64,000 nt of DNA from Spirochaetes bacterium GWE1_32_154 (lineage in GTDB: Bacteria > Spirochaetota > GWE2-31-10): contig MIAY01000001.1 of the NCBI GenBank assembly GCA_001829315.1, forward strand, positions 324,927-388,926. The letters run 5' to 3'. How positions within the stretch are numbered: position 1 is the first letter of the stretch; the number at the start of each line of letters is the position of its first letter. Under the pieces are notes generated by a model. It had not been told where the DNA came from, did no database searches, and saw nothing but the letters and a program-made list of their open reading frames with translations. Positions 12,091-23,299 of this stretch are shown here, in pieces. Made by a program: the position numbers and the translations under genes.

Positions 12091-13047
12091 TTAAAAAAGA
12101 GCCATATCCTTTGTTGGATCTCCTTTAAGGAAATCTTCAAATCTTGAACTTGCTCCCTGAGCCAGATATCTTCTTAGCTTTGAAATATCGGAAAATTCAG
12201 CTCCAAGTAGACATATATAAATGTTTGTGCCGTGTTTAACTTTTCCCCATTTAAAAAGAGTATTGATATCATGTATTTGTTCACCTTCATAGAAAATAAG
12301 GACTTTCATTTCAGTGTACTTTGCTTCATAAGAACGAATTATTCTTTTCCATGCTTCAACATTACCGTTGTGAAATAATTCATTAGTTACTGTTACACCA
12401 TACTGTGGTGACATTTTCTTTTTACCACCGGTACTTTTTGAAACAGGTGCCACTTCTTCAGCCGGTTTTAGTGTCACGGTAGCAGTTGGTTTTTCTTTAG
12501 TATGTTTTGGTGTAACCGGAACAGATTCTGTAGAAAATTTCATGTTACTATCGGTTATTTCACTATTTAATAATTTAGCAAGTTCTTGTGAGCATTTATC
12601 AGCAACTTTACTGTCAAATGGCTGATTGAAATTACCAATATATAACACGACTAATTCATTTTCTCTTAAACCATCAATACTTTGCCAGCTTTCTTCATTT
12701 TTCGGATTAATGAGAATCATGCCAAGTTGAGGATGGTAATATGCTATTGAAATATCAAAAGCAGACCAGGTTGTTACAATTTTTGAAATTATATTTAATG
12801 GTTTGGTAAAACCTTTTTTTAAATTTAACGAAGAGCAAAAATATTTGTATTTATCTACTAATAGTGCATTAACTATGGGACTGACTTGATATGGTTCTAT
12901 TTTTTTATCTTCAATTCTTGTATTGAGTATATCAGATATATTAATTTTAGATTCAAACTGTTTAATCATGCTTGTAACACCTTTAAAGTGTCTTAAAGCC
13001 ACATTAAAACCTTCTCTTTTACCTAGAAAATTTAAACTATTCTCCAT
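12091..13047 (-). CDS. Uncharacterised protein between cfpA and the PPDK-like gene
   Basis: 318 residues, cytoplasmic (no signal or membrane segment). An alpha/beta N-terminal part (about 1-175) is joined by a Lys/Pro/Thr/Val-rich linker (about 180-215) to a C-terminal domain of about 100 residues ending in an acidic tail with the sequence GDPTKDMALF. I do not recognise a family. The start has GGAGGG about 9 nt upstream. It is transcribed in the same direction as cfpA but is separated from it by a strong terminator, and lies only 18 nt before the PPDK-like gene. The T. pallidum locus between cfpA and ppdK also holds a hypothetical gene, so it may be an orthologue. Confidence 0.75.
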   Translation of the reverse strand: MENSLNFLGKREGFNVALRHFKGVTSMIKQFESKINISDILNTRIEDKKIEPYQVSPIVNALLVDKYKYFCSSLNLKKGFTKPLNIISKIVTTWSAFDISIAYYHPQLGMILINPKNEESWQSIDGLRENELVVLYIGNFNQPFDSKVADKCSQELAKLLNSEITDSNMKFSTESVPVTPKHTKEKPTATVTLKPAEEVAPVSKSTGGKKKMSPQYGVTVTNELFHNGNVEAWKRIIRSYEAKYTEMKVLIFYEGEQIHDINTLFKWGKVKHGTNIYICLLGAEFSDISKLRRYLAQGASSRFEDFLKGDPTKDMALF

Positions 13048-13097
13048 GTGGTAACTCCCTCCAACAAAACAATGTATTTATAAATTTACATGAGTAT

Positions 13098-13134
13098 AAA
13101 CACAAAAAAGCGGGCTAGCCGCTTTTTTGTGTTT
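13098..13134 (-). terminator. Strong terminator after cfpA
   Basis: A 16-bp perfect stem (13098-13113 with 13119-13134), a 5-nt loop, and A/T runs on both sides. Reading on the minus strand it lies just downstream of the cfpA stop, so cfpA is probably a separate, abundant transcript with partial read-through. Confidence 0.9.
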
Positions 13135-13148
13135 TATAATTGAATAGA

Positions 13149-15098
13149 CTAAATCTCTGTCATTCCATCATCTTCTGTACTTACATCAACAATTCCTTCT
13201 GGTGCATTACCGGATGAACTGCTTTCTTCAAGAAAATTAACTTGGTAAGCAGGAGCTTCTTCATCTTCACCCATAGAACCGAAAGATTGATTAATATCAG
13301 CTCTAACAGTTGATCTTCTTCGTGAGAATGAAGCAAATGCAGCATCTTGAAAACCTTTACTAACTCCGTGTAAAAATTCGTTAAGAACATTTGCCATAGA
13401 ATTAAGAGTGTATTTCTTTCTTTTAATTGATGTAATATCAACATCAAGTACTAAACCCGGTTGAATATGGTAAGGATTGATCATGTAATCAAACTTACTG
13501 AATTCTTTATATAAGAATTCTATTCTTTCTTCAACTGCTAGTCGTTCAACAGGATTTTGATTTTTAAAAGTTCTTTGTAATTTTTCTCTTAAAATCATAA
13601 ATCTTTTTCTTGTATCTTCTTTTTCATACAAATATGTATTGTTAAGTTTTTGAACATCTGTAGATTCAGCTTTTATAAAATTAACTTCTGTCCATTCTTT
13701 TTCAGCAATATTATAATCATTTGTATCTAAGCCAAGTTTAGCTTTTTTGCCATTGATTGTTTTTTGAAGTTTTCCGGCAAGATCGTTATAATCAATAACT
13801 TTGTTTCTTCTTTTTTGATAAAGCTCTTCAATAACATCCCATGCTCGAAGAATTTCTGATTGAATAGCCTGATATTGTTTATCATAAGCTTTTCTTTCGT
13901 TAGATAATTGTTCTTGATCGTAATATGTCAATCTAACCTGGTATCTTTCATCAGGAAGGTTTTCAGGTGTTGTATCTTCATATTCTCTAATTACAAGATC
14001 TCTTGCATTTTTCAGGTTTTCAATAAATTGGTAACCCATTTTAGATGTATCAAGAATACTCGTGATAGAATTAACAGCAGTGTTAAAACCTCTGTTTCTG
14101 ATGTTTTCAATATCAAGGATTTTCTTTAAGTTTTCTCTGATATTTAACTGATCATATTCTGCTTGAGAAATTTCTGCTCTTAAACCATCCAGTTTTTCAA
14201 GAATTGCTTTTGCAACAAATGAATATCGTGATGATTTTTCATCTTCAAGATCATCAGAAGTATAATCTCCGACTTTTTTGAATTTTTCAAATATTATTTC
14301 CGTATCGGTTAAATCTTCTTTACCTTCATCGGCTCTTGTATCTTTTAATTGTTCAATTTCTCTTTCTAATAAATCCATTATGTGTTTAGAAATTAATTCT
14401 TTTATTAAAAAGTTAATTGTAGTTTGATAATGGAAAATAGGAGATATAAGTTCAGAATCTAAAATGTTAACAGATAATTTAACGTCTGAAACGGTTTTAG
14501 GTTTGAAAATATTATCTTTAAAAGCACATTTTGAAATTGAATAAGCATTTTCTCCTCGAATAAACGCGCCAACGTCAACTTTTTGTCTTAATAAAGCATT
14601 CGTTTCATTTTCAAGATCATTCATACCTCGTTGGATATGACCTTGTAAATGACCAAACATATTGATCATTGATTTCTCAATTTCACCGGTATTAAACTTA
14701 TCCATACCACCAATTTGATCTAATAAAGCAGCAATTTCTCTTGGTGTATATCGAGCGAGAGTTTTCATTTCTTCTTTGTCAACAAAGTTTCGAACTTTTT
14801 TAACCATTTCGTCTTCACTTGTTGTCATAAATCTGTTAAACATATTTTGATAATTCTGGTTGAAGTAGTTATAAAGTTTTTCTTTTATACCACCCATTAC
14901 ATCCAATTTTTCAAGTGAAGTCTTAGGCATTTTTGTTATAACATGATTCATAACCTTATCGACTTCTTCCTTGATTACTGTATCAACCTCATTTTGTTGA
15001 TCTCTAAACTCTTGAGCAAGTGAATTTCTAGATCCTACAGCACTTGGTTTTTCAGGATGAAAAACATTCGGGCTCTTAGGTAAATCTAAATGTGCCAT
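13149..15098 (-). CDS. cfpA: Cytoplasmic filament protein CfpA
   Basis: 649 residues, predicted mostly alpha-helical and coiled coil, highly charged, with no signal peptide. The N-terminal region (AHLDLPKSP..., then the segment around [17 protein letters not shown]) is what I recognise as treponemal CfpA, the roughly 78-kDa subunit of the ribbon-like cytoplasmic filaments that run beneath the flagella and take part in cell division and structure. Two adjacent ATGs start the gene; the second (15098) is 6 nt after AAGGAG and is preferred over 15101, which is only 3 nt away. A long leader and a strong terminator flank it. This is the best taxonomic marker in the window. Confidence 0.9.
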
Positions 15099-15136
15099 CA
15101 TAAACTCCTTGTTTTAATATTGATTTTTAGGAGTAG

Positions 15137-17102: not shown

Positions 17103-17112
17103 TGTCGTTCTT

Positions 17113-17183
17113 TGTCGGATAGTGTAATGGTAGCACCATGGATTCTGATTCCATTTGTGAGGGTTCGAGCCCTTCTCCGACAG
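17113..17183 (+). tRNA. tRNA-Gln (anticodon CTG)
   Basis: A full cloverleaf can be folded: acceptor TGTCGGA (17113-17119) with TCCGACA (17176-17182), a 3-4-bp D stem, anticodon stem ATGGA/TCCAT around the loop TTCTGAT, and a T arm with the TTCGAGC loop. The weak U1-A72 pair and discriminator G73 are identity elements of tRNA-Gln and agree with the anticodon. CCA is not encoded. It has its own promoter and terminator. Confidence 0.95.
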
Positions 17184-17186
17184 AAT

Positions 17187-17214
17187 ACCGGATCAATTGA
17201 TCCGGTTTTTTTTT
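17187..17214 (+). terminator. Terminator of tRNA-Gln
   Basis: The 20-nt perfect palindrome at 17187-17206 is followed by about nine T residues, 3 nt after the tRNA. Confidence 0.92.
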
Positions 17215-17259
17215 ATTGTTATTCATCGGAAATGTTGTATAATACTTTAAGAGGTTATG

Positions 17260-17964
17260 ATGGATAATACAGATAAATTACTTGAAATGGTTTTTTCAGG
17301 CGGATATTCTCTTGAAGGTCAATTAGTCGGGCTTTCTGCTGCAATAAATATTTTATTTGCTGCTATAATCGGGTTTCTGATTATTGGTGTTTATATTCTT
17401 ACAACTGATAAAGGGAAAAAAGATTTACCACTTGTTCAGTCAATTCCTGTTCTTTCTATATTAATGTCTGTAATTATGAGAATCGATGGAAGTCGTGCCG
17501 CAATTTTTTTCGGGATATTCGGTATTCTCAGTATTGTTCGATTCCGTTCTGAGTTAACCGATCAGAAAGGCATTACATTTATACTTTTTTCCATAATAAT
17601 GGGTTTGCTTTCCGGTATGGGGAACTTCATCTTAGCCGGCGTTTCGTTTGTAATTATTTCATCAGTTATTATTATTATTCGATATTCTTTTAAATCAGGT
17701 CGTTATAAAGCGGCTAATCTTATCTTTTCAGGCGATCTTGGGCTGTCTGACATTGAAAAGATTGCTACTGAAACATTAATTCTTTTTAAAATTGATTATG
17801 AATTCACTTCCGCATCAGAAAAGATTAACAAATTAAATGATACTAAAAAAGAAGTTGAATATCTAATGCACAGTAAAAACGTACAATTAATGCTTTCTTT
17901 GTATAATGAAATGAATGTACATTTGAAAGAAAAAGGTGTAAATCTTGAATTTCGAACTAAATAA
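17260..17964 (+). CDS. DUF4956 membrane protein
   Basis: 234 residues. Four or five membrane segments fill the first 150 residues and a soluble alpha/beta tail follows. The stretch FFGIFGILSIVRFRSEL is the signature of the DUF4956 family. Members are commonly encoded beside VTC-type polyphosphate polymerases and CotH proteins, which suggests a role in a membrane-associated phosphotransfer or export system; the activity is unknown. Two ATGs are adjacent (17257 and 17260); the second is 5 nt after AAGAGG and is preferred. It ends 12 nt before the CotH gene, so the two form an operon. Confidence 0.85.
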   Translation: MDNTDKLLEMVFSGGYSLEGQLVGLSAAINILFAAIIGFLIIGVYILTTDKGKKDLPLVQSIPVLSILMSVIMRIDGSRAAIFFGIFGILSIVRFRSELTDQKGITFILFSIIMGLLSGMGNFILAGVSFVIISSVIIIIRYSFKSGRYKAANLIFSGDLGLSDIEKIATETLILFKIDYEFTSASEKINKLNDTKKEVEYLMHSKNVQLMLSLYNEMNVHLKEKGVNLEFRTK

Positions 17965-17976
17965 GTGGAGTAAATT

Positions 17977-20079
17977 ATGAAATTAAATGCATTTAAAATG
18001 TTAATTATGATGTTTTTACTGGTTTCATGTATTACAGAGGGTGATAAGGAAAATGCTCTTAAAAATCCGGATGATACAAATTTGATAAATACCGAAGATC
18101 CGAAAGTTACAGAAGAATATACAAATTTATTTAATCCTGAAAATTTGCATACAATAGAAGTTGTTTTTACGCAATCAGAATGGGACGGGGTAACTCAGGA
18201 TATGCTGGATTTTAGTGCAAAATTCAATGGTGATCTAAAAACTGGTAATTACCGGAAAGCACATATAATTTATAATGGAATAAATAGTCCGGAAGGTGCA
18301 TTTGAATTAAACGAAGTCGGTTTTAGAACACGAGGCAATACAACGAGAGTTTTACCTGAACAAAATGGTGAATTGTATAGAGCTCATTTTAAGATTAAGT
18401 TTAATGAGACTTTTGATATGGTGGAAGGAAGTGAAGATTATAAAACAAGGAAAGACAGACGCTTTTATAATTTAAGAGAATTGAATCTAAAAAAAGAAAG
18501 TGATGACACAACTTTAATCAGGGAGCAGTTTGCATATAATTTCCTCAATAAACAGGGAGTGTATGCACCAAAATCAAGCGGGGCGAAATTATATATTACA
18601 ATTAATGGTGTAAAAAAATATTTTGGAATATATACGGTTATTGAATCAGTTGATAAATCATTTCTTACCAGACGATATGGTAAAGATCGAAATGACGGTA
18701 ATTTATATAAATGTTTATGGCAAGGAGATGGACCGGCGACACTTTCATATAGTGGTATAAGTTCTCAAATTGGTGTAAAAAATTGGAGAATAAATTATCG
18801 ACCAAGTTATGACAGACAAACGAATGATGAAGTGAAAGATTACACTGATTTAATAAATTTTGCTAAGAATTTAAATGATTTATCTGGTTCTTCTTTAAAA
18901 ACATATATTGACGCACATTTTGCAGTAGACAGATTTCTTAAATGGATAGCATGTAATCAACTTCTTGGTATGCCCGATGATTATTGGGCAATGGGTAATA
19001 ATTATTTTCTCTATTTTCCCAATAATCCGACTACCGATAAAATTGAGTTTATTGCGTATGATTATGACCATGGTCTAGGTAGAGGTTGGTATGGTCCGGG
19101 TGGTAAAGATTCTACGGTTAATGCAAATATCTATACATGGATTACTGATTTGGGGCTAAATTCACCACTTTCAACAAAACTTCTTGCAATTCCTGAATAT
19201 AAAACAAAATATGAGACCTATTTAAAAGAAATGACAGATCCTGTAAGCGGTGATTTTACACTTGCGAAATATAAAGCATACTATGACAACCAAAATAAGG
19301 TATATCAGAATTATTTAACTTCACTTGATACAACTGATAAAAATCTTGTTATGCAATCTGATACGGTGCAGGAGGATTTTATAACAAACAGGGTAAAATC
19401 GGTGCGAAGTCAATTAGGGCTTAGTGTGACTGATATACCTGATGATCCTGTTACCGGTTTGAGTTCAATGACTTTTTCAGAAGGGTTTGAAACAGAAAAT
19501 AATATAGTATATGCAAAAGTCTCTATCGGCAGTAATTTTAAGATTACTGTTACTGCACCTGATGATAGTACAGAGGTCAAATTATTTATTGCTGTTACAT
19601 CAAAAGATAATCAGCAAAATACCGAAGTTAAAGAGTTAACAGATAATGCAGCTCCTTTTGAATTTACATTCAGTTATGATTACGGTTACGATTGGTGGGA
19701 TGTAAAAGCAGATGTATATACAAATACAACATTATCAGGTGCGATTAGCAAAAAAGTATATACATATAACGGGGCGGATTATAATTCTCCGGTTAAAAAT
19801 AATGATGGAAGTTATACCTTTTATTTTAAACCAAATAGTGAGTATTATGTTTTTTCAGATATTGATACTGTCTATTTACGGGGAAGTTTTAATTCCTGGG
19901 GATATTCAGATAAATTAACTTTAACAAATGGTATTTATTCTGTAACAAAAAGTGACATTACTCAGGGGCAATTATATAAGTTCTGTATTGCAGGAAATAA
20001 TGGTGATGAAAACTGGTTTCGTGATAGACTTAATAAATATATGCAAACTGATGGTGATTATAATTCAATTCTTCCGTAA
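17977..20079 (+). CDS. CotH-kinase-family lipoprotein with C-terminal CBM48-like domain
   Basis: 700 residues. A lipobox (LLVSC, Cys18) places it on the outer face of a membrane. The CotH domain spans about 40-450: RTRGNTTR, a basic/aromatic block around the NLRELNLKK segment, KYFGIYTVIESVDK, and the metal-binding Asp362/Asp364 in AYDYDHGLG. CotH proteins are atypical protein kinases, known from spore coats and invasive fungi. After a beta domain (about 485-590) the C-terminal 90 residues contain VYLRGSFNSWG, resembling the glycogen-binding CBM48/AMPK-beta fold. GGAG lies 7 nt before the start. It is coupled with the DUF4956 gene, but no VTC-domain gene accompanies them here. Confidence 0.88.
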   Translation: MKLNAFKMLIMMFLLVSCITEGDKENALKNPDDTNLINTEDPKVTEEYTNLFNPENLHTIEVVFTQSEWDGVTQDMLDFSAKFNGDLKTGNYRKAHIIYNGINSPEGAFELNEVGFRTRGNTTRVLPEQNGELYRAHFKIKFNETFDMVEGSEDYKTRKDRRFYNLRELNLKKESDDTTLIREQFAYNFLNKQGVYAPKSSGAKLYITINGVKKYFGIYTVIESVDKSFLTRRYGKDRNDGNLYKCLWQGDGPATLSYSGISSQIGVKNWRINYRPSYDRQTNDEVKDYTDLINFAKNLNDLSGSSLKTYIDAHFAVDRFLKWIACNQLLGMPDDYWAMGNNYFLYFPNNPTTDKIEFIAYDYDHGLGRGWYGPGGKDSTVNANIYTWITDLGLNSPLSTKLLAIPEYKTKYETYLKEMTDPVSGDFTLAKYKAYYDNQNKVYQNYLTSLDTTDKNLVMQSDTVQEDFITNRVKSVRSQLGLSVTDIPDDPVTGLSSMTFSEGFETENNIVYAKVSIGSNFKITVTAPDDSTEVKLFIAVTSKDNQQNTEVKELTDNAAPFEFTFSYDYGYDWWDVKADVYTNTTLSGAISKKVYTYNGADYNSPVKNNDGSYTFYFKPNSEYYVFSDIDTVYLRGSFNSWGYSDKLTLTNGIYSVTKSDITQGQLYKFCIAGNNGDENWFRDRLNKYMQTDGDYNSILP

Positions 20080-20083
20080 ATAA

Positions 20084-20116
20084 AAAAAAGCGTACATTTT
20101 TTATGTACGCTTTTTT
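20084..20116. terminator. Bidirectional terminator
   Basis: A 14-bp perfect stem (20084-20097 with 20103-20116), a T5 loop and A/T runs on both sides. It serves the convergent CotH (+) and methyltransferase (-) genes. Confidence 0.92.
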
Positions 20117-21301: not shown

Positions 21302-23299
21302 TTATTTTCCTGACATAAGATAGTCTATTATTTCTGATATCCATTGTTTATTGTCAAGGTTATTTATATCGAAATCACTAAAATTGATACCGGACATAAT
21401 ACAGATTGAACCTTTTCCAAATCTATTTATCACTGTTGAAGCAAGGTTTTTTGTTGAATATAATGTTCTGTTTTCTATTTTTGTTGTTTCATTAAAATAT
21501 ACCACGGGGAAGGTATTGTATGTTAATCCTACGGGTGATTCTCCGGCTGAGGTTACAGCCATAATTTCTAAAGGGTTTCTCAGGTAAATTTGTTTTACAG
21601 AATCGGATTTGATAATTGTTTTGTTAAATGTGTTAAAAATTGGTGTAAATTTATTGGAGAACGAATTAGTTTCATCATAGATCGGATATAAACCAACATT
21701 TTCATTGTATCGAAATTTCACGGGAGAGTACAATATTCGCAAAATACGATTAAGATACGCTATTGAAAATTTTGCTTTTTCATCATTTGATCCGCCTAAA
21801 ATGATTGATCCGCCATTATATACAAAATTATGTATGGCATAGAGCAACTTAATTTCATCATTTGCATTTTCATTTATTACCGTTGGAGATGTTATGATGA
21901 GGATATCATAATTTTTTAGATTTTCATCAAGAAAATATGAATATTCATTTGCTGCAGATACTGTATATCCTTTATTTAAAAGCATAGTATCAAGTATAGT
22001 GAGATTGCTTGTGTAAAGATTTTCATGATATTTATCAATAAGTACCCTTTTAATTTTTGATAATTTAACAGGCACATTAGTTTCGCAGGTATATTTATTA
22101 TCTATATATGTTTTAATTGTAACCGATGTGTCTGAAGTTCGATCAGTAATAATTGGTATTGTAAGGGTATTTTTTTCTCTTCCGGCAAGCGAAACGTCTT
22201 TTGTGTAGAGTAAATCATTATTATTATTTGTAAATGCTTTAACAGAAATAGAGTTTATATTGGTATGAGTAATATTTTCTATGTCAGCAAAAATATATTT
22301 TTTAATTGTTTTTTTATCTTCGAGGATGTTAAAACTGGTATTGTGAATAACTACACTTTTTGACTTGATAACCCAAATTGGTGTTGTATATGCGGTATTC
22401 CCATTTTCAAAATGAATTTTTAACATCAGGTAATTAAAATTGTTTTTTAATTCAATTGCATTTTTACTATTGAAAGTCTTTGAATTAATGTTTGAAAAAT
22501 TTCTGATAACTTTTTTATTGTTGGTAACTAATGAAACACTTCCAATATTGGTTAAAGGTGTTTTTATATTGATAGAATAATTGAATACCGTATCACTTGA
22601 TTCAATAACATCCCCAATTATTGAAGAATTCAGTTTGAAATCTATTATTGTGTTTGGTTCAAATGAAATATACGTTTTCCGGTTTAAAAGGCTGTTATAA
22701 ATTGTGTCGGGATCATTTTGTTTTGTTATCAGATTTATTCGTGCACTACTATTAATTTCCCATTCAGGTCCGAGTATTTCTGATTCTGCAGAAACACCGG
22801 CGATAAAACCCCGGTCTAAATAATTTTCATAATCATCAAGATGAGAAATTACTGCACCATTATAATTTATCTGTAGTGTGTTAAATAAAATTGAAGTAGG
22901 AATTTCTCTCATTTGTGGTGGTAAATCGTTCATTGCTTTATTTGGTGTAAAAAAATAAACAATATTTTCACTAACTTCAAAGTTGGTATCATTTGAAAAG
23001 GTTTGCATTCTCTGAAAAAGCATTGGTGGTTTTTCAGAAATCTTTTTTGATATATTTCCAATTTTTTTTGATAGTTTTTGTTCGTCTTCATTTAAATTCT
23101 GCGACTCTAAAAAAAACCAGAAATTAAGATCATTATCAATAAAAGTTTTTTCAATTGTTTCCTTACTGAAAAAGCTGTTTGCTGTATAATATTTGCTTCC
23201 GGTTGTAATGCCTGTAATAACCTGATTATTGACAAGTTTAGATTGGTCGCAACTGTAAGAAATTAAAACTAAAAATAATAGAAAAATGTATCGATTCAT
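21302..23299 (-). CDS. Lipoprotein with PHP/CehA-like C-terminal strand region and GATase-like domain
   Basis: 665 residues. The signal ends SYSC (Cys17), so this is a lipoprotein. Residues about 150-230 resemble the end of a CehA/McbA-type PHP metallo-esterase (GFIAGVSAESE, then LLNRKTYISFEPN with IIGDVI), but no complete set of metal-binding His residues is visible. The final third (about 440-665) looks like a glutamine-amidotransferase-like/DUF4350-type Rossmann domain (YDILIITSPTVI, then FVYNGGSIILGG). The function is unknown; a cell-envelope sugar or polymer sensor or hydrolase is a guess. It lies between priA (43 nt upstream) and the methyltransferase (2 nt downstream). The binding site before its ATG is weak. 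Confidence 0.65.
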   Translation of the reverse strand: MNRYIFLLFLVLISYSCDQSKLVNNQVITGITTGSKYYTANSFFSKETIEKTFIDNDLNFWFFLESQNLNEDEQKLSKKIGNISKKISEKPPMLFQRMQTFSNDTNFEVSENIVYFFTPNKAMNDLPPQMREIPTSILFNTLQINYNGAVISHLDDYENYLDRGFIAGVSAESEILGPEWEINSSARINLITKQNDPDTIYNSLLNRKTYISFEPNTIIDFKLNSSIIGDVIESSDTVFNYSINIKTPLTNIGSVSLVTNNKKVIRNFSNINSKTFNSKNAIELKNNFNYLMLKIHFENGNTAYTTPIWVIKSKSVVIHNTSFNILEDKKTIKKYIFADIENITHTNINSISVKAFTNNNNDLLYTKDVSLAGREKNTLTIPIITDRTSDTSVTIKTYIDNKYTCETNVPVKLSKIKRVLIDKYHENLYTSNLTILDTMLLNKGYTVSAANEYSYFLDENLKNYDILIITSPTVINENANDEIKLLYAIHNFVYNGGSIILGGSNDEKAKFSIAYLNRILRILYSPVKFRYNENVGLYPIYDETNSFSNKFTPIFNTFNKTIIKSDSVKQIYLRNPLEIMAVTSAGESPVGLTYNTFPVVYFNETTKIENRTLYSTKNLASTVINRFGKGSICIMSGINFSDFDINNLDNKQWISEIIDYLMSGK

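Follow-up and report, generated by a model that had tools for sequence, protein, structure and literature searches.

The window, the whole 64,000-nucleotide stretch of the Spirochaetes bacterium GWE1_32_154 genome that was analysed, encodes a DUF4956 membrane protein and, directly behind it, a CotH-family kinase lipoprotein whose C-terminal tail is, judged by profile and predicted fold, a genuine CBM48-type domain. We give about even chances to the reading in which the two genes form a VTC-less operon of a pel-type cassette, the lipoprotein kinase docking on a glycan and the DUF4956 protein sensing or gating it from inside.

Both genes lie on the + strand, DUF4956 at 17257-17964 (235 aa) and CotH at 17977-20079 (700 aa), and are separated by 12 nt. 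The first-pass annotation had described a DUF4956 membrane gene 12 nt before a CotH lipoprotein gene, and both reading frames and their spacing were recovered here; the position 17260 from which it counted is the second ATG of a frame beginning at 17257. Upstream, a tRNA-Gln (CTG) gene found by ARAGORN (17112..17184, + strand) lies outside the unit, and the terminator-like hairpin that follows it (17187..17206, + strand, pattern only) marks the upstream boundary of the pair. Another such hairpin, with A and T runs on both sides, closes the pair at 20084..20116; it was listed on the - strand and reads from its sequence as a two-way terminator. Overall, four terminator-like hairpins were found as compared to 1.3 expected from shuffles. 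A sigma-70-like match, TTGTTA-16-TATAAT (17216..17243, + strand), lies 13 nt upstream of the start codon of DUF4956. This match is weak, because promoter matches as a whole showed no excess (21 versus 19.6 in shuffles). The layout suggests that DUF4956 and CotH make up a small operon and share a transcript. Elsewhere in the window, the proteins encoded at 12091-13047 (318 aa), 13149-15101 (650 aa) and 21302-23299 (665 aa) had no Pfam match at E<=0.01; the N-terminus of the 665-aa protein is a signal-peptide-like stretch ending SYSC.

The CotH protein starts with a signal peptide and a lipobox, LLVSC, with Cys18 (17977..18030, + strand; sequence pattern, hydrophobic segment at residues 1-19), a pattern that supports its earlier description as a lipoprotein. 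The lipobox pattern is common to 25 of the 36 long CotH proteins found in our sample of 149 genomes of the phylum Spirochaetota (long meaning 450 aa or more; divergent proteins recognized by Pfam only and not by our own profile, for example L102_8 and L089_2, fall outside this set). Residues 117-474 (18325..19398, + strand) match the CotH kinase family PF08757 with 151.1 bits (cut-off 23.8) and B. cereus CotH, 5jd9, at E 2.8e-15. In alignment A2, RGN 119-121, K172, E183, D334, D362 and D364 were invariant in 17/17 CotH proteins. According to the accessible text of PMC7821199, the activity of B. subtilis CotH requires D228 and D251. D362 falls at the position of D251 via the 5jd9 alignment, a mapping deduced from the 23-residue spacing in 5jd9; the D228 counterpart, D334 or D335, was placed by eye only, the alignment being shifted there by two or three residues. 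The family match and the conserved Asp residues agree with the claim that the domain belongs to a kinase family, and the protein is presumably active in phosphotransfer.

With the Bacillus spore-coat kinase (5jd9), the window's protein has in common the kinase domain and the conserved Asp residues. It is however a lipoprotein with extra C-terminal domains, encoded in a genome without Spo0A, and no CotB/CotG-like substrate was recognized near the pair by composition, no window protein standing out in Ser plus Lys+Arg. To our knowledge, CotH kinases outside spores have no established substrate, and among open-licence papers we found none on a CotH kinase in spirochetes. The phosphorylated target could conservatively be taken to be an envelope protein or, more boldly, the glycan itself. 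Between the kinase domain and the tail, residues 486-612 (19432..19812, + strand) form a linker or beta-rich region, modelled for the most part with pLDDT < 50. Pfam gave no match for residues 519-598, and the assignment of a known fold to residues 486-612 was dropped, model confidence being too low.

The tail itself, a CBM48/AMPK-beta-like domain, covers residues 613-700 (19813..20076, + strand). As a single sequence it is borderline, because its CBM_48 score straddles the Pfam cut-off of 22.4 bits, with 19.6 for the whole protein and 23.0, just above, for the last 102 residues alone; phmmer of the lone tail against the PDB reached AMPK beta-1 at E 0.29. Using a profile of 15 homologous tails (alignment A1), the AMPK beta-1 CBM (1z0n) was found in the PDB at E 1.5e-8, followed by alpha-amylase and branching enzymes. 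A predicted model of residues 486-700 was confident for the tail only, blocks of ten residues having pLDDT values of 70-95 from residue 606 on. With this model, the 29 Foldseek matches at E<=0.001 were branching enzymes and one GH13 amylase. VIA aligned it to the CBM48 of E. coli GlgB (4lpc, residues 118-221) with Z 13.3 over 96 residues (rmsd 2.6), and to feruloyl-esterase CBM48 domains, one of them solved with xylobiose, with Z about 11. In the AMPK beta-1 CBM, as reported in the accessible part of PMC6274970, W100G and K126Q abolish glycogen binding and W133L weakens it; in the profile alignment, W641, K668 and W680 of the window's protein take, by spacing, the positions of W100, K126 and W133. 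Profile, predicted fold and AMPK-type residues together confirm that the last 90 or so residues of CotH resemble CBM48, as had been claimed, and the structure prediction returned a CBM48 fold and not an unrelated beta fold.

The tail may bind sugar, and recruitment of the kinase to a polysaccharide is plausible. The ligand cannot be named as glycogen, because a lipoprotein lies outside the cytoplasm and because the feruloyl-esterase CBM48 match is nearly as good. The tail shares its predicted fold with the AMPK-beta CBM and GlgB CBM48, and the glycogen-binding residues described for AMPK, but it is fused behind an exported CotH kinase, in an extracytoplasmic setting where glycogen is not expected. 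The tail could also have kept the CBM48 fold as a structural or protein-binding domain, in an envelope protein kinase that does not dock on sugar. We hold this possible, though on the unlikely side. Points in its favour are the replacement, in a third of the tails, of two of the three positions tested by mutation in AMPK (K668 and W680 are each found in 10/15, and N696 in 7/15), and the LTD, fn3, LRR or unassigned domains that other CotH proteins bear in place of CBM48, as does a 661-aa paralogue whose tail has no Pfam match. The window's protein nevertheless retains W641, K668 and W680, and W641 is present in 14 of the 15 tails.

The upstream protein, encoded at 17257..17964 on the + strand, matches DUF4956 (PF16316) with 41.2 bits (cut-off 30.6); its Pfam match to MgtC is weak, at 18 bits. 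The N-terminal helices are at residues 19-144, and the G-RFR-G columns are invariant in alignment A4. By predicted secondary structure, residues 150-235 (17704..17961, + strand) make up a C-terminal beta-alpha-beta-beta-alpha-beta domain of the ferredoxin-like (ACT/PII-like) type. The predicted model (mean pLDDT 71.0) fits a helical membrane part followed by this ACT/PII-like domain. Foldseek with the model gave nothing at E<=0.001; the listed VIA rows, which cover the C-terminal domain, had Z up to 9.9, to MzrA, PII-like SbtB and aspartate-kinase ACT domains. A tree built from 32 DUF4956 proteins places the window's protein in a fully supported group of nine Spirochaetota rows, 0 of which are VTC-linked, and the VTC label requires 3 changes on this tree versus 9.9 in shuffles. 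L117, whose sequence is partly masked, was for that reason omitted from A4 and from the tree; L112 is truncated where its contig ends.

Chemotaxis genes were seen next to DUF4956 in several places. In four f33 genomes (L095:3606-5631, L096:10430-12465, L100:7334-9350 and L101:8058-10067), DUF4956 is the last of a three-gene run whose partners encode 163-164 aa and 273-280 aa; CheD and CheR were identified in the L095 run and assigned by size and order in the other three. In G001 (L107), DUF4956 is followed by a methyl-accepting chemotaxis protein gene, and a CheY/CheX pair lies just upstream of the window's pair on the opposite strand. A connection between DUF4956 and chemotaxis is possible.

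The system with which the pair is best compared is the accessory set of Gram-positive pel loci, which are gene clusters for a biofilm polysaccharide. The accessible parts of PMC7112168 and PMC12345266 describe cotH-VTC-DUF4956(-DUF4832) accessory genes in streptococcal and clostridial pelDEADAFG loci. In S. intermedius, strains deleted for either the DUF4956/MgtC-type gene SIR_1592 or the CotH gene SIR_1594 aggregated less and had altered Pel levels, and the VTC-type SIR_1593 is not listed among the genes affecting aggregation or Pel in the accessible text of PMC12345266. The same text gives SIR_1592 four transmembrane segments and an ACT domain and presents SIR_1594 as a CotH-FN3 protein. Measured against that description, the window encodes the same DUF4956-type membrane protein, with four transmembrane segments and an ACT-like domain, and a secreted CotH with an extra C-terminal domain. 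It differs in that its genome has neither VTC nor PelG, and in that the CotH tail is CBM48-like where SIR_1594 has FN3. By analogy with this set, DUF4956 and CotH may be the functional core, to which VTC would be an optional addition.

The genome of the window (4.03 Mb, 43 contigs, 97.58% complete) contains one DUF4956 gene and three CotH genes, two of which lie in tandem on contig 29, the third being that of the window. Its single Ppk1 gene is on another contig than the DUF4956-CotH pair. A profile search of the whole genome for VTC (PF09359) gave 0 matches, so that no VTC gene was found outside the window either. Loss of VTC to an assembly gap is unlikely, because of the completeness of the genome and because the pair lies inside a 650-kb contig. 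The first-pass annotation had singled out the pair for its missing VTC partner. The absence stands, both nearby and genome-wide, but it is ordinary, since 17 of the 24 DUF4956 loci of the phylum have no VTC within 10 kb and the window's nine-row DUF4956 clade has no VTC-linked member. PelG (PF16933) had 0 matches in the genome, and a link to pel in this organism was therefore rejected. As for the host, which had been taken as non-sporulating, the genome has no Spo0A C-terminal domain and therefore no sign of Firmicute-type sporulation. The tandem CotH genes lie at L005:10265-12250 and 12266-13693; the 661-aa paralogue shares 46% identity with the window's CotH across residues 47-483 but has a different tail.

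Across the 149 genomes, DUF4956 was found in 22 and CotH in 22, with both in 19; six genomes had just one of the two, three having DUF4956 but no CotH and three the reverse (Fisher p 4.6e-18, a descriptive value that ignores kinship). Taking 10 kb as the neighbourhood, the 24 DUF4956 loci have CotH in 15 cases, VTC in seven and both in six. VTC itself scored over its cut-off in 8/149 genomes, in seven of them within 10 kb of DUF4956. Thus VTC is nearly always with DUF4956, whereas DUF4956 is usually without VTC. In the window's order (nine genomes), seven have DUF4956, and CotH is beside or near it in three (G000, G015 and, with VTC, G046); the CotH of the G015 pair has no tail. G027 and G053, of the same family as the window, keep both genes apart, with CotH on other contigs and DUF4956 ending a gene run; a YbbR-like and a TPR protein are encoded in the run of G027. 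Conservation of the pair in spirochaetes is thus only partial, the two genes co-occurring in these two genomes without being adjacent.

Separate DUF4956 and CotH loci are also seen in G001, of the same order, and in G038, whose DUF4956 is cut by a contig end. Together with the six genomes having one gene only and with the f33 DUF4956 genes behind CheR-CheD genes, they would fit a reading in which the proximity of DUF4956 and CotH in this genome reflects no common function, the pair being a leftover of an old cassette or a coincidence. We consider this unlikely, as 19 of the 25 genomes having either gene have both, 15 of the 24 DUF4956 loci have CotH at close range, and deleting either of the two homologues in Streptococcus has an effect on Pel-dependent aggregation in the account accessible in PMC12345266. 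The least probable reading of all is a polyphosphate module with Ppk1 in place of VTC, DUF4956 handling polyphosphate or phosphate at the membrane and CotH targeting an outer phosphate-rich molecule; the Ppk1 gene of the genome, the proximity of VTC to DUF4956 in 7/8 VTC genomes and the weak MgtC match would favour it, but Ppk1 is on another contig and the aggregation effects in S. intermedius are told, in the accessible text of PMC12345266, for SIR_1592 and SIR_1594 and not for the VTC-type SIR_1593.

The VTC-DUF4956-CotH trio occurs in G129 (L090:4092-9160), where CotH carries LRR and LTD domains. PelG is absent from this single-contig genome, and the trio is hence not confined to pel loci. 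This contrasts with PMC12345266, whose accessible text states that the authors' analyses failed to find the arrangement outside Pel.

CBM48-like tails were detected on 16 of the 36 long CotH proteins; since the tail profile was grown from the window's own tail, more remote CBM48 domains may have escaped it. Among genomes having DUF4956 and CotH, a tail is present in 10/12 without VTC versus 1/7 with VTC (Fisher p 0.006, again descriptive and ignoring kinship). Spirochaetota CotH kinases without VTC thus appear often to carry a sugar-binding-type tail. The 76 named CotH proteins, mostly from other phyla, gave one AMPK1_CBM match, at the N-terminal side. A quick CotH tree with long branches was made from 64 rows chosen among sampled and named CotH proteins, A5 excluding nine named loci whose records apparently duplicate those of sampled genomes. 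In this tree, the window's protein clusters with the CotH of G001, which bears the tail, and at a deeper level with Bacillota CotH proteins linked to DUF4956 (L111, L112, L115, L118), some with VTC, a grouping that would place the window's kinase in the cassette lineage. The tail requires five changes on the tree, four of them forced by well-supported branches. It was therefore gained or lost several times and is not essential to the pair. An apparent VTC-CotH fusion (L121) was dropped because its reading frame crosses a stretch reading N. In f33 genomes, CotH genes were also observed three to four in tandem, the majority of them encoding CBM48-like tails (L082:7057-14686, L095:5832-11758, L096:4445-10243 and L101:10319-18119).

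To return to the VTC-less operon, the set would be a branch, devoid of VTC, of the VTC-DUF4956-CotH module of Gram-positive pel loci. The DUF4956 protein would sit in the inner membrane, with its ACT/PII-like ferredoxin-fold domain probably in the cytoplasm. The exported CotH lipoprotein kinase would dock through its CBM48 tail on an alpha-glucan-like or xylan-like glycan, either of the envelope or extracellular, and would phosphorylate proteins, or possibly the glycan itself, at that site. DUF4956 would probably sense or gate CotH activity from inside. Both the substrate and the cooperation of the two proteins are inferred. W641, K668 and D362 would be targets for point mutants.

Sugar phosphorylation is known from animal secretory pathways, where it is carried out by POMK and Fam20B. 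A bolder version, which we regard as a long shot, would make the Spirochaetota CotH-CBM48 proteins extracytoplasmic glycan kinases, the tail keeping the enzyme at a surface polysaccharide, the CotH domain phosphorylating the sugar and DUF4956 gating the reaction from the cytoplasm. If true, it would explain why DUF4956-CotH genes accompany Gram-positive exopolysaccharide loci. Overall, the repeated gain or retention of a sugar-binding-type tail within a single phylum suggests that glycans are the site or the substrate on which CotH kinases act, and that sugars anchor some of the kinases of bacterial surfaces.
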